DNA from: a virus
Length of the DNA: 24,128 nucleotides
Reading direction: 5' to 3' (one strand)
Virus record (IMG/VR): IMGVR_UViG_3300050034_000038
Location: 1-24,128 of that record
Part shown: positions 611 through 23,988 of the stretch, piece after piece
Layout: every line of letters starts with the position of its first letter
Position numbering within the stretch: position 1 is the first letter of the stretch
Translations under genes and position numbers: made by a program
The notes under the pieces: model-generated
Seen by the model: only the letters and a program-made list of their open reading frames with translations
Databases searched by the model: none
What the model was told of the DNA's origin: nothing

Positions 611-645
611 CCCCTGTTTACTTTGGTGACTATTCATGGTAATAT
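611..645 (+). promoter_or_regulatory. Early promoter A with internal operator
   Basis: The -35 TTTACT (617-622), a 17-base spacer and the -10 TAATAT (640-645) fit a vegetative sigma promoter. The quasi-palindrome GTTTACTTTGGTGAC (616-630) overlaps the -35 and the spacer. It is preceded by ACCCATTCATCCCCT, also present in copy D and nearly so in B. The leader then reads into AAAGGCGGTGCTT ahead of the gene at 686. Confidence 0.75.
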
Positions 646-853: not shown

Positions 854-888
854 CTCCTGTTGCAAAAGGTAACAGGAAGAGTTAATAT
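854..888 (+). promoter_or_regulatory. Early promoter B with internal operator
   Basis: The -35 TTGCAA (860-865), 17-base spacer and -10 TAATAT (883-888) form the promoter. The quasi-palindrome GTTGCAAAAGGTAAC is at 859-873, in the same register as in promoter A. No terminator is seen between the preceding gene and this promoter. Confidence 0.75.
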
Positions 889-1867: not shown

Positions 1868-1902
1868 TGCTTGTTGCCATAGGTAACGCTCTATGGTATA
1901 CT
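1868..1902 (+). promoter_or_regulatory. Early promoter C with internal operator
   Basis: The -35 TTGCCA (1874-1879), 17-base spacer and -10 TATACT (1897-1902) make this the best consensus match of the set. The quasi-palindrome GTTGCCATAGGTAAC (1873-1887) is also its most symmetric early copy. Confidence 0.8.
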
Positions 1903-2271: not shown

Positions 2272-2306
2272 CCCCTGTTTACTTAGGTAACGAATTATGG
2301 TATACT
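2272..2306 (+). promoter_or_regulatory. Early promoter D with internal operator
   Basis: The -35 TTTACT (2278-2283), 17-base spacer and -10 TATACT (2301-2306) form the promoter. The quasi-palindrome GTTTACTTAGGTAAC is at 2277-2291. The upstream TTACCCATTCATCCCCTGTTTACT matches promoter A almost perfectly. Confidence 0.8.
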
Positions 2307-2806: not shown

Positions 2807-2863
2807 CGCATATTCAGAAAAAAAATAACTCATGTTTGCCTCGTGAGTTATTTTTTTATGCGT
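2807..2863. terminator. Bidirectional terminator between the two arms
   Basis: The core stem AATAACTCATG / CGTGAGTTATT (2824-2834 and 2842-2852, loop TTTGCCT) is flanked by an A-run and a T-run, so it works on both strands. An outer ACGCATA/TATGCGT pair (2807-2813 and 2857-2863) extends it. It ends the plus-strand early arm and, from the other side, the late operon, overlapping the stop of the sigma factor gene. Confidence 0.93.
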
Positions 2864-3419
2864 TATATAATTTGTTCTTAATTCGTTTGTGCGCTTTGTT
2901 TAAAAGTCTGCTTACATAACTCTGTGAAAATCCTGTCATCTTTGCTATGTCTGGCTGATTAAATTCCTTCATATAAAGTTCTACTACAATTTTTTGCTTT
3001 GGTGGTATATTTTTTATTGCCTCTCTGATTGTCTCCTGCTCAATCCAATCTTGAACATTGTTATTACTTGAGAATTTATTTTGTATCAAATCCCACATAT
3101 CATAATCACTATCCATGTGGTTCTTCCCATAATTAGACAAGTCAGAAATTGGTACCGTCATTATTGTATGTCTTTGTGTTCTTAAAGCCATAAGAATTTC
3201 ATTTTGAATAATAAACCCGACATAAGAACTAAATTTTACATTTCTTTCTGGTTTAAAATGTTTTGCTGCTTTTGTTAAACCTAATAGGCAATGGCTTAAT
3301 ATATCATCATAATCTAAACTAGTTTTTAGTTTCCATCTTGCTGCAAAAAAGTGACCTAATTTATAATTATCCTCAATTAACTTAATTTGTTCTTTTGTTA
3401 GTGCCATTGCCTTTGCCAT
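2856..3419 (-). CDS. Phage sigma-70 family RNA polymerase sigma factor
   Basis: The 187-residue protein has a region 2-like block at about residues 35-80 (YDDILSHCLLGLTKAAKHF, then KFSSYVGFIIQNEILMALR), the core-binding and -10 recognition helices. A region 4-like helix-turn-helix lies at about 132-182 (QPDIAKMTGFSQSYVSRLLN) for -35 contact. It is short, as expected for alternative sigma factors lacking regions 1 and 3. AGGAGG lies seven bases before the ATG. It would redirect host RNA polymerase to chosen promoters. It is the last gene of the late operon, 14 bases after the holin-like gene, an odd place for a regulator. Its targets are not shown by the sequence; the duplicated leader elements are the best candidates. 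Confidence 0.88.
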   Translation of the reverse strand: MAKAMALTKEQIKLIEDNYKLGHFFAARWKLKTSLDYDDILSHCLLGLTKAAKHFKPERNVKFSSYVGFIIQNEILMALRTQRHTIMTVPISDLSNYGKNHMDSDYDMWDLIQNKFSSNNNVQDWIEQETIREAIKNIPPKQKIVVELYMKEFNQPDIAKMTGFSQSYVSRLLNKAHKRIKNKLYNA

Positions 3420-3433
3420 TATTTTTCCTCCTG

Positions 3434-3847
3434 CTATTTTTCTTTTGGTGTTTCTATTGGTGGTTCTTGTTTAATTTCTACTGGTGGTATTTCTAATTTC
3501 TGTAATGTATTTTCTTCCTCTGGTGTTGGTTCTGGTTCTACTGTCAAGGTTGCATTTACTTCTGGTGTTGGTGTTGGTTCTGGTTCTGGTTCTGGTGTTG
3601 GTTCTGGTATTGGTTCTGATTGGATAAAGTTAGTTACACCAGAATATAATCCAACTGCTCCAAGTCCAAGTTCTAATCCAAATATTCCAACTTGTGCAAT
3701 ATCCATATTTTTTATATAGAAATAACAAAGTATTTCTGCAATTACAATTGAAACAAATGGCATATATTTATTTGGTATTGCTGTCTGCTTCATTGCTTGA
3801 ACTAATGCAACAATTATTGGTAATAAAATGATTGAATAATTATTCAT
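3434..3847 (-). CDS. Putative holin with proline/glutamate-rich tail
   Basis: The 137-residue protein has three hydrophobic segments in its first 75 residues: SIILLPIIVALVQAM, then FVSIVIAEILCYFYI, then VGIFGLELGLGAVGLYSG. A cytoplasmic-looking tail rich in PEP and PTP repeats and glutamate follows (about residues 80-137). Three membrane segments and a position directly after the endolysin gene fit a class I holin that permeabilises the membrane at lysis. The start (LLPIIVALVQAMKQ) resembles Gram-positive phage holins from memory. The long Pro/Glu tail is unusual; holin tails are normally short and basic. AGGAGG precedes the ATG by eight bases. An alternative reading is a membrane anchor or spanin-like accessory. 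Confidence 0.7.
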   Translation of the reverse strand: MNNYSIILLPIIVALVQAMKQTAIPNKYMPFVSIVIAEILCYFYIKNMDIAQVGIFGLELGLGAVGLYSGVTNFIQSEPIPEPTPEPEPEPTPTPEVNATLTVEPEPTPEEENTLQKLEIPPVEIKQEPPIETPKEK

Positions 3848-14964: not shown

Positions 14965-15494
14965 TTATTTATTACTTGCATTTTGTTTTCTTATTCTGTC
15001 ATTTTCTTCTTCTATTTTAATATTTTTATATGCCATCCATTCTGTCAATTCTTCTGAACTTATCCTGGTCAACAATTCATTAACTGTGCATCCTAAAGTT
15101 TCTGCCATATCAAAATAAAACCTTCTTTCAGAATGCTCACTTAGTTTTTTGTTGCTGTTTCAACTGCATCAACATCAAGTCCAGAAATTCTTATAACTAC
15201 TTGTGCTATTCTTTCTAAGACTCCTCCGTTCTTTTCGTTTAAAACATTTCTATCGGTTGGCTCGAATATTAATTTTAATGTCTCTGGGTCATATGAACTT
15301 GTGATTGCTAAATCTGCATACATATTTTCAAAGTTCATTTTTCCTTTTTTATCCATTGCCTCTCCCATAACTAATGCTCTTTTTTTGCCTGTCATTGACT
15401 TAACTAAAATATCTACTTCCCATTCTGGAATATTGAGAATCTCTGACTTTATATCTTGGGCATTTAAAATTTTATCTCTTAAACTTTCACTCAT
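14965..15494 (-). CDS. Tail assembly chaperone, frameshift product (GT)
   Basis: A -1 shift at A-AAA-AAC (15150-15144), just before the zero-frame TAA, joins the 117-residue G protein to a 59-residue extension. The extension has no start codon of its own. It reads FYFDMAETLGCTVNELLTRI and then SSEELTEWMAY, the typical second-frame domain of Gram-positive phage tail chaperones. The total is about 176 residues. By analogy with lambda gpG/gpGT, the long form binds the tape measure and recruits tail tube subunits. It sits directly upstream of the tape measure gene, as expected. Confidence 0.85.
15141..15494 (-). CDS. Tail assembly chaperone, short form (G)
   Basis: A 117-residue helical, charged protein that ends at TAA one codon after the slippery site. 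It contains IPEWEVDILVKSMTGKKRALVM, typical of small tail chaperones of Firmicute phages. It would coat the tape measure before tube assembly. AAAGGAGAAAGCAA precedes the ATG. It is the first gene after the duplicated 116-base element and opens the tail block. Confidence 0.85.
   Translation of the reverse strand: MSESLRDKILNAQDIKSEILNIPEWEVDILVKSMTGKKRALVMGEAMDKKGKMNFENMYADLAITSSYDPETLKLIFEPTDRNVLNEKNGGVLERIAQVVIRISGLDVDAVETATKN
15144..15150 (-). other. -1 ribosomal frameshift slippery site
   Basis: On the minus strand, A-AAA-AAC fits X-XXY-YYZ in the correct register, with the zero-frame stop TAA right after it. The -1 frame then stays open for 59 codons. I see no strong stem-loop close downstream. 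Confidence 0.85.
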
Positions 15495-15529
15495 TTGCTT
15501 TCTCCTTTGCTTTTTATTTGTTCTACCTC

Positions 15530-15645
15530 AAATTTGCTCCACATATGCTCTACGTTCGATTTAGTTACCAAAGGTATTGGTAGCCAAGAAGTTTCAAACT
15601 ATCGTTTTACCATATTCAACCCAGGACATTACTCCATAAAAACCC
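15530..15645 (-). promoter_or_regulatory. Duplicated late leader element, copy 1
   Basis: This gene-free stretch aligns without gaps to 23392-23507, with about 91 of 116 bases matching by hand. The most conserved minus-strand blocks are TGGAGTAATGTCCTGGGT, ATATGGTA, AACTTCT, TACCTTTGGTAAC, AATCGAACGTAGAGC and GAGCAAATTT. It contains the quasi-palindrome GTTACCAAAGGTATT (15564-15578), related to the operator in the early promoters. It ends about 35 bases before the chaperone start. It may be a late promoter with operator, or a structured leader RNA. The strand is chosen because it precedes a minus-strand gene block. Confidence 0.75.
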
Positions 15646-15650
15646 TTTTT

Positions 15651-16271
15651 TTAAAATGGTCCGAATGAAAAACAATTCTGGTCTATATCGTTTGTACTTG
15701 AAAAATCTACTTTTTGCTGAATAACTCCATCTACTGCCGCATCTATATCGCCTTTGTCAATTATTCCCCAAACTCTCATTGTTGCACCTGCTGTTGCTAT
15801 ATTATAAAATTCTATGACAAAGTCATTATCTGCTATTAATGTTTTAGAAAAATAATCAGAGCCATCATAAAATTTACTTAAAGTTCCTGTCACATCTTTT
15901 AATCCTTGTGTTCTTTCTATAAATTGGTCACCAAAAATAGTTGAGTCAATGTTAGTTGCTGTCAAAACATAATCAAACTCATGTGCTTGAACTACTGGTA
16001 CTACTGGGAGATAACTTCCACTAACTGTTACAGTTCTAGCTGCTACTGTTAAAAATGTTATTATCCCTGCTAATCTATTTAAAGAATAAAGAGTTGATGC
16101 TTGAAGAACTCCTCCAACATAAACTTCAATTACTGAATTCATTCCCCAAACATTTTTGGTAGTATCTGTTATTTGATAATTTTCATTATCCGTTGTTGTT
16201 GTTGCTTGAGTTGTGAAAACTGTTTCAGTACTATAAGTTAGGACTTTGGCATTCTTACCTGCTATTGCCAT
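15651..16271 (-). CDS. Tail tube-like protein 2 (206 aa)
   Basis: The second of two tandem tail-tube paralogues. Its C-terminal half matches the next gene: TNIDSTIFGDQFIERTQGLKD versus TNIDVSVFGVTFVQRIQGLKD, then a shared DIDAAVDGVIQQKVD / DNDAAVDGAITTKID end. It also carries about 85 extra residues near its N-terminus (NVWGMNSVIEVYVGGVLQAS to YLPVVPVV), which look like an inserted beta domain. It may be an alternative tube subunit or a tail-tube decoration. AGGGAGGCG precedes the ATG. It is the last gene before the duplicated element. Confidence 0.75.
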   Translation of the reverse strand: MAIAGKNAKVLTYSTETVFTTQATTTTDNENYQITDTTKNVWGMNSVIEVYVGGVLQASTLYSLNRLAGIITFLTVAARTVTVSGSYLPVVPVVQAHEFDYVLTATNIDSTIFGDQFIERTQGLKDVTGTLSKFYDGSDYFSKTLIADNDFVIEFYNIATAGATMRVWGIIDKGDIDAAVDGVIQQKVDFSSTNDIDQNCFSFGPF

Positions 16272-18813: not shown

Positions 18814-18844
18814 TTTTTTAAAAAGGTGGCTTTTTAAACCACCT
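18814..18844 (-). terminator. Terminator/attenuator after the capsid gene
   Basis: On the minus strand AGGTGG-TTTAAAAAG-CCACCT is followed by TTTTT. It begins about 12 bases after the capsid stop. It lies within a continuous operon, so it probably lowers rather than stops transcription, which would keep capsid mRNA in excess. Confidence 0.78.
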
Positions 18845-18855
18845 CTAAAAATTAT

Positions 18856-22328: not shown

Positions 22329-23357
22329 TTAATCCTCCTCACGAATGCCAAATCCTCCAACAGAAAATCCTGTATAATACCCATTCTTTACTTTCAACCA
22401 GGTATTAATATCTAAAATCTTTACCGATATTACCCAGGAACCTTGCATTACCTTTTGGCCATTAGTTACAAAATCTGCGGGTGCGATATAAGATTCGCAC
22501 ACTTCAGCAGGCGCAACTTTCTGATGACTATCTCCAACTGTCCTAGAATTTTCTAGGAAGAAATGAGCGGATTTCTCAATCTCATCCGGACTGATTGTAT
22601 CTCCATGCGCATCAATGGTATAAGGTTCCAACACAACACCTGTAACGATTTGTTGGTCTCCATCTTGTTTTACGATTTTGGCATAATATTCTTTCCTTAT
22701 CTTTTCTTTAATAATTGGTTTTTTTATTTCATCTGGCTTTTTTATTGCCTCATCTATCTGCTTTAATTTTCTTGCTAGTTCTCCACTATCTCCAAACTTC
22801 TTTATTGATACTGGATGAGGGAGCATAAAGTTTGCTTTTTCTTTCAAAATACTTTTTGCTGTCTTGCCAAGAGCAATTATGATCTTCGGGTTTGCTTCAT
22901 CTAATTCCTTATCTACCCAACTTTTCCATACTGCTGTTTCGCTAGAATATGGTTCTCTAACTTTTCCATTTCTATCTGTTAGGCAATTTGGCACAATATT
23001 TGTTATAAAAACATCACTCTTTTTTAATCCAAGCGGTCTTAGATACATATCGTTAAATGTTTTGCCAGTTGGACCCACTAAAGGTTCGTGTCTTGCTCCC
23101 TCTATCTCTCCTGGACTTGCACCCACGAATGCTACAATCGCATTGACCTTTCCTTTACTTGGAACACTTGGCTTAAATTCTTTTAGCATAAGATTTTCTT
23201 TAAATCTATTTGCTTTTGCATTTCCACCACTTCTTGGAATCGCAATATTCCTAATTTGAATATATTGTTGTGGTGTTACAATTTCTTGAAGGGTTTTTAA
23301 TACTGATTCCAAATATTCCCTTGAATGTTGTTTTTTGATTGGTTCAAGCTGTAACAT
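22329..23357 (-). CDS. Uracil-DNA glycosylase-like/prohead protease fusion
   Basis: Residues about 70-200 resemble family 4-type uracil-DNA glycosylases: GASPGEIEGARHEPLVGPTG (79-98), DVFITNIVPNC, IIALGKTAKSIL, and an HP pair at 181-182. After a charged linker (about 205-224), residues about 225-342 match XkdF-like (peptidase S78_2) prohead proteases: VTGVVLEPYTIDAHGDTISP, DSHQ with His278, and TGFSVGG with Ser332. The protease would mature the head. The glycosylase half might excise uracil or only bind DNA. The protease lacks its usual EVSLVP end, which instead begins the next gene. AGAAGGTG precedes the ATG, and the duplicated element lies directly upstream. Confidence 0.85.
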   Translation of the reverse strand: MLQLEPIKKQHSREYLESVLKTLQEIVTPQQYIQIRNIAIPRSGGNAKANRFKENLMLKEFKPSVPSKGKVNAIVAFVGASPGEIEGARHEPLVGPTGKTFNDMYLRPLGLKKSDVFITNIVPNCLTDRNGKVREPYSSETAVWKSWVDKELDEANPKIIIALGKTAKSILKEKANFMLPHPVSIKKFGDSGELARKLKQIDEAIKKPDEIKKPIIKEKIRKEYYAKIVKQDGDQQIVTGVVLEPYTIDAHGDTISPDEIEKSAHFFLENSRTVGDSHQKVAPAEVCESYIAPADFVTNGQKVMQGSWVISVKILDINTWLKVKNGYYTGFSVGGFGIREED

Positions 23358-23391
23358 TTTTTCACCTTCTCTTGTTTATTCGTACCCCTTT

Positions 23392-23507
23392 AAATTTGCT
23401 CTTAAAAGGCTCTACGTTCGATTACGTTACCAAAGGTACTAACACTCTAGAAGTTCTAAAGGAGAGTTCTACCATATTTCACCCAGGACATTACTCCAAA
23501 AGAACCC
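23392..23507 (-). promoter_or_regulatory. Duplicated late leader element, copy 2
   Basis: Gap-free counterpart of 15530-15645. It carries the quasi-palindrome GTTACCAAAGGTACT (23426-23440) and a second small palindrome TAGAAGTTCTA (23449-23459). It lies about 35 bases before the start of the glycosylase-protease gene and thus heads the head-module block. No good vegetative -35/-10 pair is seen on either strand. TGGAGT-N16-TATGGT on the minus strand is conserved in both copies and could be an alternative sigma promoter. Confidence 0.75.
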
Positions 23508-23516
23508 ACATTTGTA

Positions 23517-23682: not shown

Positions 23683-23988
23683 TCACTCCTTTTTAAATTC
23701 TTCAAATTGTTCTCTCGTATTATTACCATACCCATATTGTTTATGGAATAATTTGTGTATGCTTGATAAAAGAGTTATGCCATTATCTATATTAAATCTG
23801 CATTTAATATCTGAATTATAACTGTTTAAATGATGTGCTACTAAATCACCGCTCTTTTTTATTCCTGTTATTTGACAAGTAAAATGGTCTCTTTCATAAA
23901 CTTTTCTTCTCCAAAAAGCATATCCTTCATCTCTTTTGTCTATATACATTTTTTCTCTTTGAATTGACGTAATGTTTGGATTGAACAT
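23683..23988 (-). CDS. HNH homing endonuclease-like protein, possibly N-truncated
   Basis: A 101-residue HNH protein: NPNITSIQREKMYI, AFWRRKVYERDHFTCQITG, VAHHLNSYNS with the HH pair at 52-53, DNGITLL with Asn69, and HKLFHKQYG with His78 and His82. This layout is common in phage homing-type nucleases that cut DNA and spread by gap repair. The zinc cysteines usual in this family are mostly missing. The reading frame stays open for 33 codons upstream of the ATG and encodes a fitting stretch (KEYRAKCRAVKLGKLNPMFN) but has no ATG, GTG or TTG start. Either an unusual start is used or the gene has lost its front end. Confidence 0.8.
   Translation of the reverse strand: MFNPNITSIQREKMYIDKRDEGYAFWRRKVYERDHFTCQITGIKKSGDLVAHHLNSYNSDIKCRFNIDNGITLLSSIHKLFHKQYGYGNNTREQFEEFKKE

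Follow-up and report, generated by a model that had tools for sequence, protein, structure and literature searches.

Why should similar stretches of DNA stand in front of two different late genes of one phage? The window analysed here, which is the whole virus record of 24,128 bp, holds two such copies (W1 and W2), and related copies are present in a sister phage (L004, IMGVR_UViG_3300049716_000002). An earlier note on this DNA had offered a late promoter or a structured leader RNA as possible explanations. The late promoter proved to be the best-supported reading, with an element that is non-coding, lies upstream of late genes at gene boundaries, is kept in the sister and has rigid internal spacing, while the structured leader RNA found no support in folding, covariation or Rfam. 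Judging from comparative sequence analysis, we consider it reasonably probable that the locus is a duplicated DNA element for late transcription, probably a promoter with activator sites.

Two similar copies lie inside one late gene array

The minus strand of the window carries the late genes in the order head, tail, lysis and then a sigma factor gene, and the small plus-strand genes at 1-2800 look early. The element copies and the genes that follow them are:

15513-15645, minus strand: copy W1 of the element, preceding the gene of the tail assembly chaperone; the sister site is empty
15141-15494, minus strand: tail assembly chaperone (phrog_344), downstream of W1
23375-23507, minus strand: copy W2 of the element, preceding the UDG/S78_2 protease gene; two tandem copies occupy the corresponding position in the sister
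22329-23357, minus strand: UDG-superfamily domain plus S78_2 (XkdF-like) protease, the head maturation protease, downstream of W2

The segments 15530-15645 and 23392-23507 align without a gap and are identical at exactly 91 of 116 bases, as had been counted by hand. The similarity runs further, to 133 bp with 77% identity (15513-15645 against 23375-23507, E 1.3e-24). All three identical blocks named in the earlier note were found on the minus strand, and its distance of about 35 bases to the ATG also holds, with W1 ending 35 bases before 15494 and W2 34 bases before 23357. No third full copy was found within the window. Ahead of the HNH gene, a possible partial copy, which would be the third, gave p~0.007 against W1, yet other window segments did equally well; the segment 23992-24031 (minus strand), upstream of that gene, bears a weak likeness to the 3' end of the element (TAGAGC..TGT.GAGC) that is not significant across the window.

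Both copies are intergenic, co-directional with the late structural genes and immediately upstream of them. W1 belongs to the tail module, where it is flanked by the chaperone gene and by the gene of a 206-aa protein (15651-16271), which, by its position, we judge to be the major tail protein. Going upstream from W2, one meets first a small ORF, next an HNH gene and, at the contig edge, what appears to be the 3' end of a MuF head morphogenesis gene; portal and MuF genes likewise precede the position of the element in the sister. The idea that the element heads both late gene blocks therefore had to be given up: W1 and W2 are both internal to one co-directional late array, and W2 does not open a head block, since the putative MuF end, the HNH gene and the small ORF are upstream of it.

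Several other features of the window were recorded. The HNH gene (23683-23988, minus strand) adjoins W2, and no counterpart was found in the sister. The protease gene at 22329-23357 is one ORF, with the uracil-DNA glycosylase superfamily domain ahead of the S78_2 (XkdF-like) protease domain, and is 85-87% conserved in the sister. Directly after the major capsid gene, a hairpin followed by a T-run was read by eye at 18820-18845 (minus strand), and the sister has a similar post-capsid hairpin with arms that are altered yet still complementary (also read by eye); the window's hairpin is likely a partial terminator. On the plus strand, ORF 1146-1700 contains a 57-bp tandem duplication (98%) at 1241-1354.

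The sister phage has a tandem pair at one site and an empty second site

Related capsid proteins were found on 133 contigs; 80 of these were kept, and a single one is close, namely L004, with a capsid protein 85% identical to that of the window (next best relative, 58%). Two tandem copies (~3386-3515 and ~3520-3655) stand before its orthologous protease gene, so that the earlier expectation of related copies ahead of late genes in sister phages was borne out. No copy was found before its tail chaperone gene, where the 205-aa and chaperone genes are 24 bases apart; set against this empty site, the extra W1 DNA of the window starts directly behind the stop codon that ends the preceding gene. In the sister, the upstream late genes, portal and MuF, are without an element copy, and the element is thus not the sole late control.

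Over the full aligned length, W1 and W2 are more alike than the cross-phage pairs, and the same is true of the two sister copies (SA and SB). Because the copies within a genome are the most alike, they likely arose by lineage-specific duplication or gene conversion.

Beyond the window and the sister, no copy was found in 50,697 phage records, in plasmids or in IMG/VR pattern scans. Loose-pattern scans returned 14 and 8 contigs, all of them except the sister weak by profile. One pattern match, in L086, was set aside; translated by eye, it looks like a piece of an HNH gene, and its profile score was not significant. As for copies in host genomes, one genome scan by capsid protein yielded only a 43% relative.

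Repeated DNA near the head genes was also seen in the distant relatives L058, L037, L033, L060, L062, L066 and L082. When translated by eye, these repeats read as the peptides KHGxHDQKxHGxWA and KAKFxSRSEAGxYAAHIRW, at more than one place per phage. The repeats that we read in the wider phage group are mostly coding and not promoter-like.

An extra copy where the sister site is empty, the tandem copies and the A-rich AAATAAA-like junctions, which could permit microhomology insertion, would suit a small mobile or selfish DNA element without regulatory function, spreading from one gene boundary to another. We regard this as quite improbable, however, since terminal inverted repeats are absent, no copy was found in the other phages, plasmids or IMG/VR contigs searched, and conservation is blockwise, with fixed spacing, at a position common to both phages. 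A MITE or small transposon was rejected because these repeats are lacking and the element was not found in unrelated contexts or replicons.

Two conserved blocks flank a spacer of constant length

All four copies consist of a 5' block of ~46 bp, a middle of 25 bp and a 3' block of ~36 bp. At the small depth of two phages and four copies, identity amounts to 63-80% in the 5' block, 77-86% in the 3' block and 36-64% in the middle. The 5' block and the middle are gapless throughout, and the element core has a single indel, of 1 bp, which falls between GGTAAC and AATCGAACGTAG. As cross-phage gene identity is 68-80% at the nucleotide level, the conservation of the blocks is roughly that of coding DNA, while the middle has diverged in sequence but not in length. 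In the window, the parts are:

15602-15647, minus strand: W1 5' conserved block (TGGAGTAATGTCCTGGGT...ATGGTAAAAC), 63-80% identical to the other copies
15577-15601, minus strand: W1 middle, free sequence of fixed 25 bp, 36-56% identical to the other copies, gapless
15542-15576, minus strand: W1 3' conserved block (TACCTTTGGTAAC..AATCGAACGTAGAGC), 77-86% identical to the other copies
23464-23509, minus strand: W2 5' conserved block, 70-80% identical to the other copies
23439-23463, minus strand: W2 middle, free sequence of fixed 25 bp, 36-56% identical to the other copies, gapless
23404-23438, minus strand: W2 3' conserved block, 77-86% identical to the other copies

In W2 and SA, the alignment shows four TGG triplets in the 5' block, at positions 2, 12, 25 and 36; AGG replaces the last of them in SB and the first in W1. 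GAGC-N7-GAGC closes the 3' part (in SA the first copy is GGGC). The spacings of both repeats are near one helical turn, as would be expected of DNA contacted by proteins on one face, and the rigid spacing of the blocks points to a DNA element that is read by protein.

Such a site might also serve another process, as a replication origin or iteron cluster, a packaging (pac) site, or a partition or recombination site, and the TGG and GAGC repeats, with their roughly helical spacing, could be iteron-like. We give this explanation little credence, because two or more copies stand immediately upstream of late start codons, the element is not AT-rich relative to the genome, and the sister has no recognised terminase gene beside its copies.

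Coding and RNA structure signals were not found

A duplicated gene-end remnant or a small conserved peptide gene could be suspected from a frame that is open through the 5' block in 4/4 copies (..SWVKYGRTLL) and from a plus-strand frame that is open through W1 and W2. In the plus-strand frame, however, differences are spread flatly over the codon positions (10/12/9), synonymous codons number 1 against 20 non-synonymous ones, and a 1-bp indel and stops break the frame in the sister copies. Both frames were rejected as coding on account of flat codon positions and broken sister frames. This explanation, which we hold to be highly improbable, is already largely refuted by the sequence comparison.

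The structured leader RNA would be transcribed from an upstream promoter and would affect the late mRNA in cis, for instance as a riboswitch-like element, a put/nut-like antiterminator or a ribosomal leader. W1 and W2 do lie between genes on the transcribed strand, ~35 nt from the start codon, the element has long conserved stretches, and TACC-N3-GGTA could pair as a small hairpin. On the other hand, the gene-strand folds of all four copies are no better than those of dinucleotide shuffles (z +0.4 to +2.1), and the RNAalifold consensus of -4.8 kcal/mol compares with -3.9 +/- 2.4 for column shuffles. Rfam gave no match, even at permissive settings, and an unconserved middle of constant length is unlike RNA loops. 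The check for folding and compensatory changes that had been suggested thus returned no stable fold and no compensatory pair among the four copies; with four sequences, and for pseudoknot-free folds of the RNA by itself, this amounts to lack of support and not to proof. We consider a leader RNA unlikely.

A candidate late promoter and its putative reader

The remark that a vegetative promoter is not evident was confirmed by a promoter scan that covered sigma-A sites: neither W1 nor W2 has a standout sigma-A promoter. No recognisable -35/-10 pair was found in the element either. The lack of a standout sigma-A promoter is expected of a late promoter that needs a phage factor, and promoters that depend on an activator or on a phage sigma factor need not have a recognisable -35/-10.

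We infer transcription initiation by the element, as well as its start site and its reader. A double-stranded-DNA module of this kind would control late transcription as a late promoter with activator or sigma recognition sites, acting in the minus-strand direction from W2 into the protease-capsid genes and from W1 into the tail genes. Proteins would read the ~46-bp upstream block and the ~36-bp downstream block, held apart by the 25-bp spacer. Within the lineage, the module would have been copied to another gene boundary, and in the sister it would have been doubled in tandem; the added copies would make for stronger expression of the structural genes that follow. The reader may be the phage's SigK/SigE-like sigma factor and/or a protein that also binds the palindromes of the early promoters. 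This candidate late control element is new and very lineage-restricted; a "new class" of promoter is not claimed. The putative sigma factor reader is encoded as follows:

2856-3419, minus strand: phage sigma factor with Sigma70 regions 2 and 4, candidate reader of the element

Its nearest NCBIfam models are SigK and SigE, with scores far below their cut-offs, and it is 33% identical to a sigma factor of Bacillus phage Goe8. The gene is the last in the lysis cluster, a distal place that is odd for a factor acting before the late genes and that is easier to reconcile with positive feedback than with first activation. In the sister, a SpoIIID-like gene (L004:1616-1897) lies between the portal and MuF genes.

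The early region of the window contains four repeated promoter-leader units of ~115 bp on the plus strand (586-700, 829-943, 1843-1960 and 2247-2365), each with an operator-like palindrome and a common AAAGGCGGTG ribosome site; at least two of the four have a sigma-A-like -35/-10. The palindromes and the related sites in the element are:

616-630, plus strand: early-unit palindrome GTTTACTTTGGTGAC
859-873, plus strand: early-unit palindrome GTTGCAAAAGGTAAC
1873-1887, plus strand: early-promoter palindrome GTTGCCATAGGTAAC, overlapping the -35 TTGCCA, with TATACT 17 bp on
2277-2291, plus strand: early-promoter palindrome GTTTACTTAGGTAAC, overlapping the -35 TTTACT, with TATACT 17 bp on
15564-15578, unstranded: palindrome-like site GTTACCAAAGGTATT in W1, 2 mismatches to GTTACC-N3-GGTAAC
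23426-23440, unstranded: palindrome-like site GTTACCAAAGGTACT in W2, 2 mismatches to GTTACC-N3-GGTAAC

With a pattern chosen post hoc (GTTACC-N3-GGTAAC, at most 2 mismatches), a plus-strand scan of the window found 5 sites against 0.5 expected, three of them in early promoter units, two in W1 and W2 and none elsewhere; the fourth early unit has the palindrome with three mismatches. In a symmetrised matrix built from the four early sites, W1 and W2 rank next, and in the unsymmetrised matrix their sites reach 9.6 bits, below several unrelated sites. Local alignment of the early units with the late elements gave nothing convincing besides the palindrome. These matches are no more than suggestive of one regulator common to the early promoters and the late element; if that regulator is real, early shut-off and late activation would be linked. 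A fuller version, which we think doubtful, would make the element a duplicable composite late promoter/enhancer of ~120 bp, used by the SigK/SigE-like sigma factor and by an early-promoter repressor sharing GTTACC-N3-GGTAAC, so that one protein would work an early-to-late switch from scattered sites in a sporulation-linked phage.

Comparison with known systems

Late transcription of the SPO1 type runs on phage sigma factors, and known promoters of SPO1 consist of short -35/-10 pairs. The present phage resembles SPO1 in encoding a sigma factor and in having late genes without evident sigma-A promoters, and differs in that its element is far longer and has no recognised -35/-10 pair. The antitermination sites put of HK022 and nut of lambda are duplicate cis elements, one per operon. 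However, put works as folded RNA, whereas no RNA structure was found in the element described here.

Phage-borne sporulation regulators have been proposed to alter host sporulation (PMC10294663), and the SigK/SigE-like sigma factor of the window and the SpoIIID-like protein of the sister recall them; a role at phage late promoters is not described in the available text of that source. The late promoters of some Gram-positive phages are still unrecognised, as for the late genes of Staphylococcus phage K (PMC11598898), and the element offers a repeated, well-bounded and rigid candidate. Together with the empty orthologous site and a candidate sigma gene that the phage itself carries, it makes the late-promoter question testable with synthetic reporters.

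Phage Mu has several late promoters (Plys, PI, PP and Pmom) that are activated by protein C (PMC4461284). The likeness lies in several activator-dependent promoter copies ahead of late genes, with a non-consensus -35/-10. In Mu, C uses short sites directly ahead of a weak sigma-70 promoter (PMC4461284), whereas the present element, likened to them from sequence, spans ~120 bp and is built of two long blocks around a spacer. In phi29, proteins p4 and p6 govern the early-to-late switch at promoters A2b, A2c and A3 (PMC3100819), and one regulator on inverted repeats at early and late promoters resembles the palindrome seen here. The early and late promoters of phi29 lie in one compact region (PMC3100819), while the early and late sites in the window are more than 13 kb apart. 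By analogy, and with no membership of either system claimed, the element may work like the multi-copy late promoters of Mu and perhaps like the p4 switch of phi29.
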